Positions 6,533 to 20,912 of a DNA stretch of 50,698 nt are shown here, piece after piece. How positions within the stretch are numbered: position 1 is the first letter of the stretch; every line of letters starts with the position of its first letter. Source of the DNA: Campylobacteraceae bacterium (GTDB lineage: Bacteria; Campylobacterota; Campylobacteria; Campylobacterales; Campylobacteraceae); contig JAIRNE010000040.1 of assembly GCA_031258205.1 (NCBI GenBank), positions 1 through 50,698 on the forward strand, given 5' to 3'. The notes under the pieces are model-generated. The model saw only the letters and a program-made list of their open reading frames with translations, had not been told where the DNA came from and did no database searches. The translations under genes were made by a program, and so were the position numbers.

Positions 6533-7084
6533 TTATGCAAATTTGCCAAACAGTTTATATTCGTCCTCTGCCGAAGCCGAACCGCTTTTCAATTTTTCTA
6601 TCAATGCGACATCATCGCTTGATACTCCGCTTGCTCTTGCAGCGTCAAATTCGCCCTCTTGCGATTTTGCGTTGGCAAATTCGCTCTTCCATACAAGCTC
6701 AATTCCCTTAGGGGTAAAAAGTGCATTACCCGCGCCGGGAGTTTTTTTATCAAGCTCCTGCAGGTATGAAACAACCTTCTTAATTTCAAAGCCGTCATAT
6801 TTTGCTTTCAAATCAGTCTCAAGGGCGTTAAGCTCTTCTCTTTGTCTTGCCGCCGCTTCGCGTGCCTCTATAGCTTTCAGCCTCGCGTCAATATCTTCAT
6901 TAGAAGTCGGAGGAGGATTGGACGGATTGGGAGACGGAGGCTCTGTTTGCGGCGGATTTTTTGCGGGTTCTGGTATATCGTCTCTATCGTTAAACAAATC
7001 CTCGCCGCCATCACTGCCTGCACCATCGTCAGGATCAATCACGTGAAAAAACAAAAACTTTATTAAAAAATTAAACAGTTTCAT
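6533..7084 (-). CDS. Phage scaffolding protein-like
   Basis: 183 residues. An N-terminal hydrophobic/acidic leader (MKLFNFLIKFLFFHVIDPDDG) is followed by a Pro-rich acidic linker (about 40-65). A charged helical region follows with an Ala/Arg/Glu coiled coil (LKAIEAREAAARQREELNALE). The C-terminus is helical (SSDDVALIEKLKSG). Acidic, coiled-coil proteins just before the major capsid gene are typically scaffolds. The first 35 residues are clearly similar to those of the small gene at 20560 on the other strand. The start overlaps the preceding gene by 14 bases. Confidence 0.6.
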   Translation of the reverse strand: MKLFNFLIKFLFFHVIDPDDGAGSDGGEDLFNDRDDIPEPAKNPPQTEPPSPNPSNPPPTSNEDIDARLKAIEAREAAARQREELNALETDLKAKYDGFEIKKVVSYLQELDKKTPGAGNALFTPKGIELVWKSEFANAKSQEGEFDAARASGVSSDDVALIEKLKSGSASAEDEYKLFGKFA

Positions 7085-10757: not shown

Positions 10758-11687
10758 TCATTTTCTCTCCAAAAATCTTAATATATTCTCCCCGACAGCT
10801 CTAACTACAGGCACACTTACGGCATTGCCGAGCATTTTATATTTTTGAGTGTCGCTAAACTCCGCAGTCCAATTGTCGGGAAAACCTTGCAGTCTCTCGC
10901 ACTCAAGAGGCGTTAGACGCCTTACTCTTCCCTCAATTTCATAAAGCCCGGTATTTGCTCCAAGTCCGCCCCCCATACTATTAAGGGTAATGGATGGTTT
11001 ATCTATGCCGTAAATTCTTGCACCTATGCTGTTTCTTTTTGTTTTTTCATAGAGGTTATTTTTAATAACATAAGTTCCGTTTGTTCTGCTGTTGCCGTAA
11101 CTTGCCGTAATCGTTTGAACTGTTTGTTCTTGTAGCTTATCAATCTGTTTACCGTAGTTTGTGAGAGGAAATATTTGTCCGATACTTCCCCTTCCAAGAA
11201 ATCCAACAAAGTAAATCCGCTCTCTGTTTTGAGGGAGAAACCACGAAGTATTAAGCAGTTGCCATTGACATTCATAAATCCCAAGTGCGCCGATTTCATT
11301 AAGGATAATTGCGAAATCCCGTCCCGCGTTGCTTTGCAATAATCCTTTAACGTTTTCGAAGATAAAAATTTTAGGTTTGCAAATTCGGATAATCCGCAAA
11401 GCCTCATAGAACAAGCCGCTTCTTTTGCCCTCAAGTCCCCTTCGCTTTCCCATAATTGACAAATCTTGACAAGGGAATCCGAAAGTAACAATGTCGATGT
11501 GTCCGAGCTTATTGGTGTCAATTCCTCTGATGTCTCCCAAAGGGACGGCTGTCGGGAACTGTTTTTGATAGCATTCGCTTGCATATTTATCAACCTCCGA
11601 AAAATAATGTTTACTAAATTCAAATCCTGCTTCCCTCAATCCTAAAGCAAATCCGCCTATTCCGGAAAAGAGGTCAAGATAAGTCAT
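10758..11687 (-). CDS. Phage DNA cytosine-C5 methyltransferase (orphan)
   Basis: Transfers a methyl group from S-adenosylmethionine to C5 of cytosine in a short target. All main motifs are present with the start at 11687: motif I LDLFSGIGG (about 4-12), catalytic PCQ with Cys at about 73, ENV at about 111-113, QNRERIYFVGF, a recognition region at about 175-235, then LTPLECERLQGFP and KMLGNAVSVPVV. The start at 11687 has an AAGGG ribosome site and gives the usual family N-terminus. A longer frame to 11774 adds 29 residues unlike the family. No restriction enzyme is adjacent, so it probably protects phage DNA from host restriction or acts on gene regulation. Confidence 0.9.
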   Translation of the reverse strand: MTYLDLFSGIGGFALGLREAGFEFSKHYFSEVDKYASECYQKQFPTAVPLGDIRGIDTNKLGHIDIVTFGFPCQDLSIMGKRRGLEGKRSGLFYEALRIIRICKPKIFIFENVKGLLQSNAGRDFAIILNEIGALGIYECQWQLLNTSWFLPQNRERIYFVGFLGRGSIGQIFPLTNYGKQIDKLQEQTVQTITASYGNSRTNGTYVIKNNLYEKTKRNSIGARIYGIDKPSITLNSMGGGLGANTGLYEIEGRVRRLTPLECERLQGFPDNWTAEFSDTQKYKMLGNAVSVPVVRAVGENILRFLERK

Positions 11688-11786
11688 AGCAATACCCTTT
11701 GTACGTTTTGAATGCGTTTTTGCGCTATATCGCAATATGTTTTGCTTATTTTCGTTATGGATTTTGTTAAGCATTTTTTAAAACTC

Positions 11787-13944: not shown

Positions 13945-14120
13945 AAAGCCTCAATATAAGCTTTGATATCGCTTTCTTTCCACGCGGCAAATCTATGACA
14001 CGACACGGCAGGCGCAGGAGCTTTGCCCTCTTGTATCTGCTTGTACCAGCTTGTACGGCTTCTGCCCGTGATATGCAAAACCTCTTTCAGCCGCAAAAGT
14101 CTGTCTATCTCTTTATTCAT
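13929..14120 (-). CDS. AlpA-like phage DNA-binding regulator
   Basis: 63 residues of the MerR-like winged helix-turn-helix form used by AlpA and excisionase-type proteins: RLLRLKEVLHITGRSRTSWY, then a wing KQIQEGKAPAP, then RFAAWKESDIKAYIEAL. Such proteins control excision or late genes in P4-like elements. It lies downstream of the primase-helicase and possible terminase genes, so it probably acts as a transcriptional activator or excision factor here. The fold call is secure; the target is inference. Confidence 0.78.
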   Translation of the reverse strand: MNKEIDRLLRLKEVLHITGRSRTSWYKQIQEGKAPAPAVSCHRFAAWKESDIKAYIEALCVQK

Positions 14121-14667
14121 CTATCACCTCCGCTTCAAATTCCAGTTCTACACTCTCAAGTTGCTTTTTTATCTCATCCGATGAGATAGTGTGAGTTCCA
14201 AGATTATTAATTCTCTCTAAGATTTTGTCTTTTACTACTGCGCTATATTGAGCTATAGCTATGATGGTTTTCGTCTCTTCTTTATTAAGTTCTTTGCCCT
14301 CTCTTAGCTTTTTAAGTATCCTTCCCATGAGTATCTCCATCGCTTCGTGAGTAGAAGCTTGCAGGATTTCCACTCTTTGGGCGTCTATCTTTGTATTTTT
14401 GATAACGCTTTCAAGTCCGGCATTTTCAAAGACGGTAACAACTTCGGCGCTGTCCGATACCGATGCCGTTACTTTCGCTTCTAAAAGAGCTTTCCAGCCA
14501 AACTTCTGTTTCACTCTATTTATTTGGCTGTCGCTCATTTGATATCCTTCGGCTTGAAGTCTCTCGGCAAGTTTCCGTTCTGTCATCGGCGTGAAATTGT
14601 TTTGAAGCTCTGCGCTCTCAAGCCAAAGTTCTAAAGCTCTTTTTTGCGCCGCGCTCATCTCTTTCAT
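14113..14667 (-). CDS. Possible small terminase subunit / DNA-binding packaging protein
   Basis: 184 residues. An N-terminal helix-turn-helix-like region (AQKRALELWLESAEL, MTERKLAERLQAEGYQMSDSQINRVKQKFGWKALL, about 6-60) precedes a helical oligomerisation-type core (about 85-150) and an acidic tail (VELEFEAEVIDE). That order, HTH then helical core then acidic tail, is usual for small terminase subunits, which recognise the packaging site. No large subunit follows, so a general DNA-binding protein is the alternative. It overlaps the primase-helicase gene by four bases. Confidence 0.45.
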   Translation of the reverse strand: MKEMSAAQKRALELWLESAELQNNFTPMTERKLAERLQAEGYQMSDSQINRVKQKFGWKALLEAKVTASVSDSAEVVTVFENAGLESVIKNTKIDAQRVEILQASTHEAMEILMGRILKKLREGKELNKEETKTIIAIAQYSAVVKDKILERINNLGTHTISSDEIKKQLESVELEFEAEVIDE

Positions 14668-17561
14668 TCGTCTTTCTCCGATTTTATGCTCTCTATCGTC
14701 AAAGAGCTGATATTCATATCTTTTGTCTCAATAGTCGTGTTATTGTCTATATTTATAGCCGTTATCTCAAAATCACTGCTTATCATTACGCCCGATGTGC
14801 ATTTGCATACAGAGGAAAGTCCCTGTAATGTTTTTTTCGGTCTGATAGTTTTTACTTCGGTTTTTGTTCCCAGCATATTCAACTCCTCCCTAAAAGAACG
14901 GAAAAAGCTTATATTGCCCATAGGATTGCCGCCTCTGTTTTTTATGTAGCTGACATATAATTTGTACATGTACTCGTGAGGTACGCAGCAGTATCTATTT
15001 GGTATTATCGCCTCTTTGATAAAGCTTCTTAGAGGATTAACTTCGTCTTTGTATGTTTCAAGCTCCTCAATCATTCTGTCGGATCTTGTGAAGCGTCCGT
15101 TCTCTTTTATTCTCTTAAGTCCGCTAATCGCAAGATTAAAGATACCAGCCATCTCGTCTTTAAATCTGTCCGAGAGGTCCCTTATTTTTTCCTCATCTTT
15201 TATCTCATAACTAAACGACAAAAGAAGCATCCGTCTAAATACGCCGTTATCAAGCCCGCCTTTTGGTTTATCGTTTCCGCTGAAAACAAGTTTGGGTTTT
15301 TCGGTGAGTTCGTAAGGGTCTTTGTTTTTAGGATTTACCGTGATAGAGTCATTATTGCTGACAAGCGCTTTCAAAATTGCCCACTGTCCTCTATCCGTTC
15401 CCGTTTTATCTATCTCGCTTCCGATGTTTATCAGTTTACCTGTGATTGCGTCAAGCTGATGTCCTTCAAACTGCTGCAATTGCAATGCGCTGACGTTTTC
15501 AGAACCAAAAAAGTTCCTTATCGTATCCAAGATAACGCTCTTTCCGTTTGCGCCGCTTTTGCCGTAAAGAAATAAAAACGTCTCAAATTCATGAGCAGGC
15601 AAAAAGCAATACCCTATAAACTCCATCAATGCCATACGTTCTTGCTCATTCGGCAGCACTTGTCTAAGAAACTTTTCCCATTTTGGGGCGGAGGCATTTT
15701 TATCATACTCAAACGGCAGAATATTTATCGCGGCATTCTTCTTGTCATGTTTATTTGAGAATGTTGTTTTACCTCTATGAGAGACAAATATCGTGCCGTT
15801 AATGCAGTTTACAACTCTTCTTTGTTCATATTTTTTTATCTCATCAAGATTTGTCGCAAGGCTTTTAATATTAACGACTATATCCTCAGCCATACTCCTT
15901 GTTCTTTTTTTCATATCCACCCTTGCCGCATTCATCCAATCCGTATGAATAAATTTAGCCAAATCGTTATCGCTCACTTGAAGATAGTAAGAACCCGTCC
16001 AAATATAGATAGAGCTTTTATACTCTCCTATATCAAACCCAGCCTTTTTTACCATAGCAATGAACGCATTCGCGCAGTCGGTTAAATGCGTTTGCCTGTA
16101 GTTATTGATGACTGTTTTTTTAAAAGTGAGCGCATTATCCATAGTATCTATTGCTTCATGGATATCTTTAAACATCCCATCTTCTCCGTTTTCAAAAAAA
16201 TACTTCGCGAACACTTCTTTTGCCGCGCGCCAAGTATCTGTTTTTTTATACCTGTCCATTTGAGAGAGGACATGATCTACCCTGTTATCATCTCCTTCGC
16301 CTTTTACATTCACAACGTACAAAACCTTATCCTCATCGTCTTTTTTCAAAAGTTCTTTTTTGATGTCTCTAAAGTCTTTAATATTGACACTCTCGTAAAA
16401 TTCGCAGAGATCAAGATTACAAATCTCCTCTATGTCGCCAAGCCTGTCGTTTGTAAGCTTGTACGTAGAGTAAGAGACGCTCTCATACAATTCATCGGGA
16501 CATTTAAAGTTTTGCTTTTGCAGATAATCGCTTATATCAAAGTTGTCGGGATACTTCTCTTTGAAGGTATAAAACAGAATGATGTGAATACTCTTTGCCG
16601 TGCTCTCAAGCTCTTTATATCTGCGTACCGCTCCGGTATATCCCGCCTTGTCGTGGTCAAACCAGACGTAAATATCTTTGCCTTTAAGTAAATCGGCATA
16701 CTCTTCCCAACTGTTTGTGGCAGCTCCAAGCGTTAAGCAGTTCACACCCAAAAACAGCAGATTCAAGGCGTCCTTTTCGCCCTCGCAGATTATTACTCTG
16801 CTATCCTCATGCTCTTCAAACCTCTCAAGCGGGAACGGGAAATAGCGAGCTTTCCACAGCCCTATCCATTTGCCGCCCATACGCTTATCGGTAAGGTTGT
16901 TATTCTCTGCGGCATATTTTTGCCTCCACTTTATGTTGTAGAGTTTTTTCTTATATTGATTGATTATGACAACGCTTTGATGGTCGGCATCCCAGCCAAG
17001 ATAAAGATTTGAGTAGTGGTGATAATGCGAAGTATGAAAAGTAGGAAAACGGGTTTTTATATCCTCGCTTATTGCATCCCACATCGTTATAAAATTCTCT
17101 TGAAGTTTTGGGACTAAAGGAAGCGCGCGTTTTAAAGAGGCTTCTCTTATCTTTGCCTCCTCTTTCTCAAACTTCTCTTTTGCTTTTTGTGCCGCAGCTT
17201 TACGCTCTTGGACTATCTTAGAGGCTTTTTCTTTCGCCTCTTCGCTCTCTTCGTAAGGAATGCCAAGAAACGTACACACTTTTTTAGCCGCTTCAATGGG
17301 TGTTATTTTGTAGTAAAGTTCCGCATATTTGACGGCGTCTCCAGCCGCGCCGCACGCAAAGCAGTTAAAAAACGCTTTGCCTTTGCGGTATGTTATACCG
17401 ACGCTTGGCGTATTGTGGCTGTGTTCATGAAACGGACAAAAGCACATGTCTTTATCAGTCGCGTATCCGCTCTTTCCAAACTCCGCGCCGTTTTGCGCCA
17501 TGAACTCTTTGAGCTCTTCTTTAGTGATATTTGCGGTGAGTTCAAAGATGTTTTGGGTCAT
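14664..17561 (-). CDS. Phage primase-helicase, P4 alpha / D5 type
   Basis: 965 residues combining primer synthesis and DNA unwinding. A CHC2 zinc domain (about 38-75) has CPFHEHSHNTPS and CFACGAAGD. A TOPRIM domain (about 258-335) has EGEKD and WFDHDKAG. A D5_N linker follows, then an SF3 helicase (about 640-800) with Walker A GKSGANGKS at about 665-673, Walker B-like LINIGSEID and LVFSGNDKP as motif C. A C-terminal winged-helix-like region ends the protein. In phage P4 the equivalent protein also binds origin repeats. Here a repeat array resembling an origin lies at 19,957-20,296. The neighbours on both sides abut or overlap. Confidence 0.9.
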   Translation of the reverse strand: MTQNIFELTANITKEELKEFMAQNGAEFGKSGYATDKDMCFCPFHEHSHNTPSVGITYRKGKAFFNCFACGAAGDAVKYAELYYKITPIEAAKKVCTFLGIPYEESEEAKEKASKIVQERKAAAQKAKEKFEKEEAKIREASLKRALPLVPKLQENFITMWDAISEDIKTRFPTFHTSHYHHYSNLYLGWDADHQSVVIINQYKKKLYNIKWRQKYAAENNNLTDKRMGGKWIGLWKARYFPFPLERFEEHEDSRVIICEGEKDALNLLFLGVNCLTLGAATNSWEEYADLLKGKDIYVWFDHDKAGYTGAVRRYKELESTAKSIHIILFYTFKEKYPDNFDISDYLQKQNFKCPDELYESVSYSTYKLTNDRLGDIEEICNLDLCEFYESVNIKDFRDIKKELLKKDDEDKVLYVVNVKGEGDDNRVDHVLSQMDRYKKTDTWRAAKEVFAKYFFENGEDGMFKDIHEAIDTMDNALTFKKTVINNYRQTHLTDCANAFIAMVKKAGFDIGEYKSSIYIWTGSYYLQVSDNDLAKFIHTDWMNAARVDMKKRTRSMAEDIVVNIKSLATNLDEIKKYEQRRVVNCINGTIFVSHRGKTTFSNKHDKKNAAINILPFEYDKNASAPKWEKFLRQVLPNEQERMALMEFIGYCFLPAHEFETFLFLYGKSGANGKSVILDTIRNFFGSENVSALQLQQFEGHQLDAITGKLINIGSEIDKTGTDRGQWAILKALVSNNDSITVNPKNKDPYELTEKPKLVFSGNDKPKGGLDNGVFRRMLLLSFSYEIKDEEKIRDLSDRFKDEMAGIFNLAISGLKRIKENGRFTRSDRMIEELETYKDEVNPLRSFIKEAIIPNRYCCVPHEYMYKLYVSYIKNRGGNPMGNISFFRSFREELNMLGTKTEVKTIRPKKTLQGLSSVCKCTSGVMISSDFEITAINIDNNTTIETKDMNISSLTIESIKSEKDE

Positions 17562-17774
17562 TTACTTTTTCAATTCGTAGATGGACTGTAACGTTTTTTG
17601 TATATACTTATTATTATCGTAGAAAAAATCTATAGCATTTTTTATATTCTTATCACACTCGTCAGCATGATTTTTATGGTACAAAAGAATAACTTTCACG
17701 CATTTAGCAACAAAAAATATTTTGATTATCTTGTCGCCCTGATCAACACCCCACAAATCTCTTATATCTCTCAT
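17562..17774 (-). CDS. Small phage protein before the primase (70 aa)
   Basis: MRDIRDLWGVDQGDKIIKIF is followed by a hydrophobic stretch (FFVAKCVKVILLYHKNH) and a Lys/Asn-rich helix. It overlaps the gene before it by four bases and stops next to the primase start. No family recognised. Confidence 0.5.
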   Translation of the reverse strand: MRDIRDLWGVDQGDKIIKIFFVAKCVKVILLYHKNHADECDKNIKNAIDFFYDNNKYIQKTLQSIYELKK

Positions 17775-18163
17775 TTTTCTAACTCCTCTATACTGAAAAG
17801 AAGCGGGTGAGTTCTTATGTATCTACTGATAGTATCCGCAACAACTCGCGCGTGTTGCGGGTTTTTGAAACTGAAGTTACGAATATTCATGTACTCACTC
17901 CATACACTTTTATTTGTTCTTTTTGAGATTTCTCTCGCTATCTCCTTTTCGTTTTTAAAGAAAAAAGGAGTTAAACTAAAGAAACTTCTCACTTTGTCGC
18001 TTTCAGGAAAAGTTATCCTGTCAGAGACAAAGACTTTTGTAACGCCACCGTCATCCATGAAGCGTCCTTCAAGTCCATGTTTTTTATCTTTATGACAAAG
18101 CTTCTGAAGCCTTGTCTTCGGGATATCAAACATGTAAGCCGCTTCTGCAAGTGGGACGTACAT
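17771..18163 (-). CDS. Early phage DNA-binding regulator (HTH at the N-terminus)
   Basis: 130 residues, the first gene of the minus-strand operon. The N-terminal 25 residues, MYVPLAEAAYMFDIPKTRLQ, read as a MerR/excisionase-like helix-turn-helix, followed by a beta wing (LEGRFMDDGGVTKVFVSD). The remainder is helical and basic (FKNEKEIAREISKRTNKSVWSEYM). A GGAGAG ribosome site lies seven bases before the ATG. It probably controls or assists replication; the exact role is not known. Confidence 0.6.
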   Translation of the reverse strand: MYVPLAEAAYMFDIPKTRLQKLCHKDKKHGLEGRFMDDGGVTKVFVSDRITFPESDKVRSFFSLTPFFFKNEKEIAREISKRTNKSVWSEYMNIRNFSFKNPQHARVVADTISRYIRTHPLLFSIEELEK

Positions 18164-18634: not shown

Positions 18635-19174
18635 TTGAGTAATATTAAAGATATTTTAGAGAGATTAATGTCTCATTATAAAGTTGGGACATATGTAGAA
18701 TTAGCTAAAAAAATAGGAGTTGTAGAGACCACCATCTCGCAATGGAAACAAAGAGAAAAAATTCCAAAACGTAACCTTTATAGAATAGCCAACAAAGAAA
18801 ACATCTCTTACGAGTGGCTCATAAACGGCGAAGGCACAAAAGAGACAAGTACGGCAGCAGCGCATGAAATAGCTCCGATATTCGGATTTCATATCCCCGA
18901 GCTGACTAAGTCGGTTAAAATATATACTGCAGATAGCTTACGCATGTCTCCGTCCATTAAGCAAACCGACAAACTGCTGGTTGATGAATCAAAAACGGAA
19001 ATTATAAGCGGACGCGTATATATGCTAAGAGGTACAGACTTTACGATTTTTCCCGCACGGCTCTTTGAAACCGAGACAGGCGTTGTAGTAAGATATGACA
19101 ATACAAAATACAAAGAAGAAAAAATGAACTATGAGATATTAGGGCAGGTTTTCTATATTTTACGGGAAATATAA
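18635..19174 (+). CDS. CI-like phage repressor without the usual S24 catalytic residues
   Basis: 179 residues, starting at TTG with an AGGG site upstream. An N-terminal XRE-type HTH (about 8-62) contains TYVELAKKIGVVETTISQWK, the pattern of lambda-type repressors. The C-terminal half follows the LexA/S24 fold (about 95-178) with MSPSIKQTDKLLVD. In cleavable repressors a Ser precedes Met in SMEPT, and a Lys follows in the VKR segment. Here the residue before Met is Arg and no Lys stands in FTIFPARL, so RecA-stimulated self-cleavage looks lost. It is transcribed away from the lytic operon and presumably keeps it silent. Confidence 0.8.
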   Translation: MSNIKDILERLMSHYKVGTYVELAKKIGVVETTISQWKQREKIPKRNLYRIANKENISYEWLINGEGTKETSTAAAHEIAPIFGFHIPELTKSVKIYTADSLRMSPSIKQTDKLLVDESKTEIISGRVYMLRGTDFTIFPARLFETETGVVVRYDNTKYKEEKMNYEILGQVFYILREI

Positions 19175-19956: not shown

Positions 19957-20296
19957 TTTTTTGATAACCGTTATTGTAACGGTTGTAACGGATTGTAACG
20001 GATGCACCGTTACAAGATTTACCCCCTATTTTACGCGCTTCCAGACAATAAAAAATGCTTGTAACGGTTCTTCCCTCGCGTACGCGCGCGAGGGAATTTT
20101 TTATCTCTTTTTTTATTTCTTAATTTCTCCTTATTTTTTGTCTGCCTCTTTTTATATATTTATTTTTTTTCCTAATATAAAAAAATAACCGTTACAAAGT
20201 TACAAAGTATAAAGAAAGCCGATTTTATAGGAGTATTTTTGTAACGGTTATCCGTTACAATCCGTTACAACCGTAACACGATAACTGTTATCAAAA
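19957..20296. repeat. Dyad-symmetric array of nine TTGTAACGG nonamers, possible replication origin
   Basis: Nine exact copies of TTGTAACGG lie within 297 bases: forward at 19974, 19983, 19993, 20059 and 20239; reverse at 20007, 20189, 20252 and 20262. The outer copies build two inverted arms, 19979-20015 and 20239-20274, identical but for two or three bases. Weaker symmetry extends to 19957 and 20296 through GATAAC..TTAT. The centre holds a strong hairpin and a very T-rich tract (20101-20188) like an unwinding element. Iterons plus an AT-rich tract fit an origin bound by the P4-type primase-helicase; operators or a transposon-derived miniature element are alternatives. The rest of 19,805-20,559 is AT-rich and holds nothing I can name. 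Confidence 0.8.
20071..20102 (+). terminator. Strong rho-independent terminator inside the nonamer array
   Basis: TTCCCTCGCG (20071-20080) pairs fully with CGCGAGGGAA (20087-20096) around a six-base loop and is followed by TTTTTT. No gene lies upstream on this strand, so it would end a short RNA started within the array or protect the A/T-rich tract from transcription. Confidence 0.65.
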
Positions 20297-20559
20297 ATTG
20301 TAGCAAAGTCCTATTTACCGACACTAAAAAAATAACAAATGATACTAATTATCAAAGATAGTAATAAAAACGAAAAATGTCTATTTTAGTTAAATATGAG
20401 TTTTCAAGATTTGAATATATAACTTTTAAGAAATATTTTATATTTTTAAAAAAGTCCGATTTTGGTTAAATTTTTGATTTTCAAAAAAACCAGCCAAAAT
20501 ATACAACTTTTTTTGCAAAAAATATTATAATATACAAAACACAACGAAGAGGACATAAA

Positions 20560-20805
20560 ATGAAACTGTTATTATCGCTTTTAAAGCGTACTGTTTTTTG
20601 TTATGTTATAGACCTTGACGATGATCGCTTGTCAGATGATGGCGAAGCATTATATGAGGAAGATACAGCTCTTGCATCAATAACACGAGAATTAGAGGAA
20701 CAAGCATTGCAAGATTTGTTTACCTATAACATAAATGACAGCAGATTCAACAATTGCGTTTTTAAAAAACGCAATGGAAAATATTATGTTGTTAAAAAGG
20801 ATTGA
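20560..20805 (+). CDS. Small prophage protein sharing the scaffold leader sequence
   Basis: 81 residues, with GAGGAC close before the ATG and TATAAT-like sequence at about 20526-20535. Residues 1-35 (MKLLLSLLKRTVFCYVIDLD and onward) match the first 35 of the scaffold at 7084 with one gap: MKL..L.K...F..VID.DD...SD.GE.L...D. The DNA also begins the same (ATGAAACTGTT). After that the two differ; here a helical acidic part and NNCVFKKRNGKYYVVKKD follow. It is the last gene before the presumed attachment site. The function is unknown; either a duplicated leader module or a decoy/assembly modulator. Confidence 0.55.
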   Translation: MKLLLSLLKRTVFCYVIDLDDDRLSDDGEALYEEDTALASITRELEEQALQDLFTYNINDSRFNNCVFKKRNGKYYVVKKD

Positions 20806-20888: not shown

Positions 20889-20912
20889 GTTCAAGTCCCG
20901 TCACCCCGACCA
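20889..20912 (+). other. tRNA 3'-end fragment, likely right attachment site (attR)
   Basis: Contains TTCAAGT as T-loop, a T-stem 3' strand CCCGT, an acceptor strand CACCCCG, discriminator A and CCA, followed by a T run. The 5' part of a tRNA is missing: the bases before the T-loop cannot pair with CCCGT. The implied 5' acceptor CGGGGTG suits bacterial tRNA-Pro. A copied tRNA 3' end is the classic footprint of integration into a tRNA gene. The orientation places the intact tRNA to the left, outside the window, and makes everything left of here part of the element. Confidence 0.65.

Follow-up and report, generated by a model that had tools for sequence, protein, structure and literature searches.

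A mirrored iteron array as the probable replication origin of a Campylobacterota prophage with a P4-type primase-helicase

A 340 bp array of mirrored nonamers lies inside a prophage of a Campylobacteraceae bacterium (contig JAIRNE010000040.1 of assembly GCA_031258205.1; the whole analysed stretch of 50,698 nucleotides is here called the window). It is very probably the origin of a full-length temperate Campylobacterota phage, at which winged helices of the phage's primase-helicase would bind the words and bring about helicase loading, melting and priming. An iteron origin used by a P4-type primase-helicase had been proposed in an earlier note on this DNA, and the proposal gains support from arrays at 16 out of 24 loci encoding relatives of this protein and from the match to the geometry of ori1 of bacteriophage P4. 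No description of the origins of temperate Campylobacterota phages with a primase-helicase of this family was found in the open-licence literature searched.

The array and its prophage

The word TTGTAACGG occurs in nine exact copies and in both orientations between 19974 and 20270 (19974+, 19983+, 19993+, 20007-, 20059+, 20189-, 20239+, 20252- and 20262-). This confirms the count of the earlier note and compares with a chance level of 0.32 copies per 50.7 kb on average and a maximum of two in 100 shuffles. The motif score of the array is 24.1, versus at most 5.1 in shuffled sequences. If > denotes a word pointing to the array centre from the left, the order reads >>> < > | core | < > < <, followed by a decayed tenth word at 20271 (CCGTAACAC, two mismatches to TTGTAACGG). 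Since this word fills the order, the ancestral layout is taken to be a complete mirror. The inverted arms described before were also recovered, as an inner pair of 29 nt with 97% identity (19975–20003 and 20250–20278) and an outer pair of 20 nt with 90% (19958–19977 and 20278–20297); allowing one 2-base gap, the arms align over about 58 bases. The central tract is indeed AT-rich, with 85% A+T compared to 61% window-wide, and the hairpin reported between the arms is terminator-like and followed by TTTTTT. It is absent from those arrays of relatives that were read and may shield the core against transcription. A near-palindrome, GATAACNGTTATC, is found at both outer ends of the array, where another protein might bind. 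A DnaA-dependent oriC was rejected on reading the sequence, as the nonamer is unlike DnaA boxes (TTATNCACA-like); here we agree with the earlier note. The features are compiled in Table 1.

Table 1. Coordinates of the array elements and of neighbouring prophage features in the window
Feature	Position	Strand	Remarks
184-aa protein	14113..14667	-	directly 3' of primase; genes overlap by 4 bp here
Primase-helicase	14664..17561	-	CHC2 zinc finger, Toprim, D5_N, DUF5906 helicase, C-terminal winged helix; proposed initiator
C-terminal winged-helix domain	14667..15092	-	predicted; proposed iteron-binding
Small protein	17771..18163	-	5' of primase, conserved alongside primase in relatives
CI-type repressor	18635..19174	+	Phage_CI_repr and Peptidase_S24; between primase operon and array
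Whole dyad-symmetric iteron array	19957..20296	.	proposed replication origin
Left outer palindrome	19962..19976	.	TGATAACCGTTATTG
Left triplet	19974..20001	+	inward TTGTAACGG words at 19974, 19983 and 19993; spacing 9 and 10
Left outward-pointing word	20007..20015	-	
Left inner word	20059..20067	+	towards A+T core
Terminator-like hairpin	20071..20096	+	TTCCCTCGCG...CGCGAGGGAA, then TTTTTT; between left inner word and core
A+T-rich core	20098..20188	.	T-rich on + strand; proposed melting element
Right inner word	20189..20197	-	towards A+T core
Right outward-pointing word	20239..20247	+	
Right triplet	20252..20279	-	inward; 20252 and 20262 exact, 20271 decayed (2 mismatches)
Right outer palindrome	20279..20293	.	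CGATAACTGTTATCA
attR	20890..20912	+	3' end of tRNA-Pro(GGG), right prophage end

The assembly (1.18 Mb, 59% complete) has a single copy of the array. The word itself recurs there at 17 further places, all isolated apart from two on contig C49 that are separated by about 1 kb, and no pair of the word exists in 398 other sampled genomes of the order. A BLASTN search of phages and plasmids with the array as query gave no match. With its inverted arms and its length of 340 bp, the array could also be a miniature transposable element bounded by long terminal inverted repeats; as the mark of such an element, the earlier note had named multiple copies of the array in host genomes that lack the phage gene. 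The single copy, the absence of word pairs in the 398 genomes and the fact that relatives conserve the geometry and not the sequence make this reading barely credible. Most exact matches to TTGTAACGG in the order and in viral contigs were single pairs or tandem arrays without relation to this one (L013, L015, L026, L038). Therefore, word identity alone is a poor guide, and geometry together with gene context is needed.

The right end of the prophage is formed by a 3' end of tRNA-Pro, and same-genus genomes have a complete tRNA-Pro at the corresponding place, beside thiD. The only other copy of this 3' end in the assembly is part of a complete tRNA-Pro on contig C97 (21391–21413; L161, L169), which adjoins a tyrosine integrase and a large-terminase-like gene. 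This region appears to be the other end of the prophage, the two contigs being unjoined. Because portal and major head genes are found within the window, and large terminase and integrase genes on C97, the element is considered a full phage and not a satellite. The end of the array is about 600 bp away from attR, and the words might thus be integrase arm-type sites of the attachment region. We regard this as very unlikely: the integrase is encoded at the opposite prophage end, the array of the relatives follows the primase gene, and geometry and A+T core agree with those of P4 ori1, P4 having separately annotated att arm repeats.

Some further genes of the element may be mentioned. The N-terminus of an 81-aa ORF beside attR (20560–20805) is similar, by eye, to that of a 183-aa ORF (6533–7084) upstream of the major head gene. 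A gene for a C-5 cytosine DNA methylase is located in the early region (10758–11774), and some relatives (L070, L055) have related methylase genes close to the primase. The presumed prophage part of C97 encodes a 2318-aa protein that reads like a methyltransferase/helicase fusion (L169:4949-11905).

The primase-helicase and the arrays of its relatives

The primase-helicase matches phage DNA primases. By sequence profile, the nearest PDB protein to its C-terminal half is 7OLA (E 2.7e-17), named as the SaPI5 primase-helicase by the fold search, in which it holds rank 2. A winged helix is predicted for the last 140 residues; the best structural matches of this model are RFX DNA-binding domains, and the match to the origin-binding domain of P4 (1KA8) is weak (rank 21, E 1.5). 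Pfam RFX_DNA_binding is matched by some members of the family, Pox_D5 by almost every one. The protein thus unites the primase domain, the D5/SF3-type helicase and, as predicted, the C-terminal winged helix of a P4-type replicon. A second carrier of the primase was not found in the same-genus search.

Relatives of this protein are about 36–54% identical, plus one at 25%, and come from Campylobacter concisus, C. gastrosuis, Sulfurospirillum, Sulfurimonas, Helicobacteraceae, Arcobacteraceae and other Campylobacterota. At 24 such loci we looked for an over-represented 8-letter word on both strands of the 560 bp that follow the primase gene on its 3' side. The co-occurrence with the primase-helicase that the earlier note had suggested checking was found at 16 of these loci, which have a strong array 3' of the gene (scores 10–26, with shuffles mostly at or below about 7) and, as near-duplicates are included, represent about ten independent lineages. 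Only 3 out of 608 control windows, taken from eleven of the sources of these loci, reach a score of 10 (maximum 10.9). Within the same 560 bp, five relatives (L071, L073, L078, L178, L180) have no array above shuffles and three more give weak scores.

The relatives share a conserved order: three inward words, one outward, one or two inward, the A+T core, and then the mirror image. It reads >>> < >> | << > <<< in L091, >>> < > | < > < > < < in L081 and L172, and >>> < >> | << > < < in L175. The spacing within a half-site is 11, 10, 19, 47, 9 in L091; 8, 12, 23, 44, 8 in L069; 11, 10, 22, 44, 8 in L084; and 9, 10, 14, 52 in the window array. Order and spacing are kept and the word differs in almost every lineage (TTGTCACAG, TTGGCTCAC, TTGTCAAGC, TGTCTTATC, TTGTCCTCA, GGTTACACTT, TGTTACACTT, GGTAACACTT, AGGTAGCAA, CGTCCCAAG), mostly with GT at its start and a lineage-specific remainder. 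What makes the finding interesting is that the geometry stays fixed and the words change. Even the nearly identical phages L081, L172/L090 and L089 have TGTTACACTT, GGTTACACTT or GGTAACACTT in most copies of their arrays. A difference that extends over most copies suggests concerted change. The distance between words correlates with the distance between winged helices (r 0.38, p 0.006); since the D5_N segment correlates as well (r 0.41), covariation does not locate the word specificity in either part.

In those relatives whose loci were read closely, the array is flanked by the primase gene and the conserved 184-aa gene. The window array is found 5' of the primase, 2.40 kb from its start and past the CI repressor. 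Nothing array-like is present at the 3' end of the window primase (score 6.4; shuffles reach 7.6), and the motif scan gave no array on its 5' side before the repressor. As there is no array at the 3' end of that gene, the link between the window array and its primase-helicase rests on family resemblance. The array stands on the opposite side of the primase gene from that in the relatives, beyond the repressor, and has preserved its geometry, which is what one would expect of a position-independent cis element.

This location bears on two other functions. The array is intergenic and close to the CI gene, and its outer palindromic sites (GATAACNGTTATC) look operator-like, so that an operator or enhancer for a transcription factor (the CI repressor, an AlpA-like or the 184-aa protein) in lysogeny control might be considered. 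We hold this to be improbable: in the relatives the primase and 184-aa genes enclose the array, at a distance from the repressor, the matching array of P4 is an annotated origin, and an operator of some ten sites and a long A+T core would be unusual. A packaging initiation site (pac/cos), bound by the small terminase subunit, is highly unlikely as well. It is true that the array of the relatives adjoins the 184-aa gene, which is conserved and lies upstream of the large terminase gene; in the window, however, the 184-aa gene is about 5 kb from the array, the large terminase gene belongs to the opposite prophage end on C97, and P4 ori1 has the same geometry.

Arrays were also seen in more distant replicons. 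A group of VapE-type phages, otherwise different, carries the very word TTGTAACGG (L016:5686-5926, L037:3801-4041, L042:717-957) in the order (>)>> < >> | << >, directly 3' of a VapE-type helicase gene (the gene was tested in L016). At L035:1425-1693, TTGTAACGG words surround a tract rich in A+T that immediately follows, on the 3' side, the gene for an 841-aa Toprim/AAA protein; this is likely another origin of similar sort. Strong arrays 3' of a distant helicase relative (L061–L068) follow another order, mostly without the internal outward site, with dense GTGTCCA words whose inward sets meet about 14 bp apart. Perhaps they represent a second origin grammar. For Javan60, a Streptococcus satellite, and for P4-type phages of Proteus and Parabacteroides, no clear array was found near the primase.

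Comparison with known origins and proposed mechanism

The annotated rep_origin ori1 of bacteriophage P4 consists of six type-1 repeats in the order >>> < >> with a spacing of 10, 11, 22, 43 and 10. A half-site of the window array resembles it in order, spacing and the position next to A+T-rich DNA. The P4 initiator and the one proposed for the window both have a primase, a superfamily-3-type helicase and a C-terminal winged helix (predicted here). Even the placement is comparable: ori1 lies 2.34 kb 5' of alpha, beyond cI, and the window array 2.40 kb 5' of the primase, beyond CI. The word is a different one in P4 (GGTGAACAG), and P4 has one half-site and requires a second cis region, crr, located separately 3' of alpha, whereas the window has two mirrored half-sites around one core. 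No other cluster of TTGTAACGG that could correspond to crr is present in the assembly, which is 59% complete and has the prophage spread over two contigs. Moreover, P4 is a satellite and the window element a full-length phage.

Iteron plasmid origins of the RepA/RepE type also combine short repeats with an A+T-rich unwinding region. Their initiator is not a primase-helicase, though, and their iterons are mainly direct repeats on one side, unlike those of the window.

In the replication origins of SaPIs and other PICIs, two iteron sets flank an A+T-rich region (PMC6092414), as in the window, and the proposed window initiator is related to the SaPI5 primase-helicase. The SaPI Rep recognises iterons directly downstream of its gene via its C-terminus (PMC7581432). 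Such a placement directly 3' of the gene is seen in most relatives but not for the window array. Further differences are the internal orientation order, in which the window array matches P4 ori1, and the portal, major head, large terminase and integrase genes, which set the element apart from the satellites. In SCCmec, the C-terminal domain of the D5-type helicase Cch2 binds short repeats 3' of its gene (PMC7581432); this putative origin has only three 5-nt direct-repeat iterons and, unlike the window, no mirrored two-sided array. The organisation of PICI origins has been said to be common to no other known bacterial replicon (PMC6092414). The finding made here calls this confinement to PICIs into question.

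P4 ori1, the Campylobacterota phages and the VapE-type replicons may follow one grammar, a generalisation for which we see about even chances. Order and spacing would be set by ring loading, and the word would be rewritten lineage by lineage together with the DNA-binding domain of the initiator. The origin would also be free to move within the phage, from a site 3' of the gene to one past the repressor, and would keep the grammar. The family supplies more than ten pairs of initiator and word, including near-identical proteins with words one letter apart in most copies. It is therefore a practical system for studying which residues read the word, how site geometry serves a self-loading helicase in loading two rings, and how an initiator and its multi-copy site change jointly.

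For the window array we infer the following course from its layout and from the domains of the primase-helicase. The C-terminal winged-helix domains would bind the TTGTAACGG words, and helicase rings would be positioned by the word sets that mirror each other across the A+T core. The rings would then converge on the core (20098–20188) and melt it. The CHC2/Toprim part would prime, and host polymerase would extend. Because the array is symmetric, bidirectional initiation is plausible. In 11 of 12 arrays one strand of the core is T-rich, and in the relatives this strand is the coding strand of the primase; a strand preference in initiation is possible.
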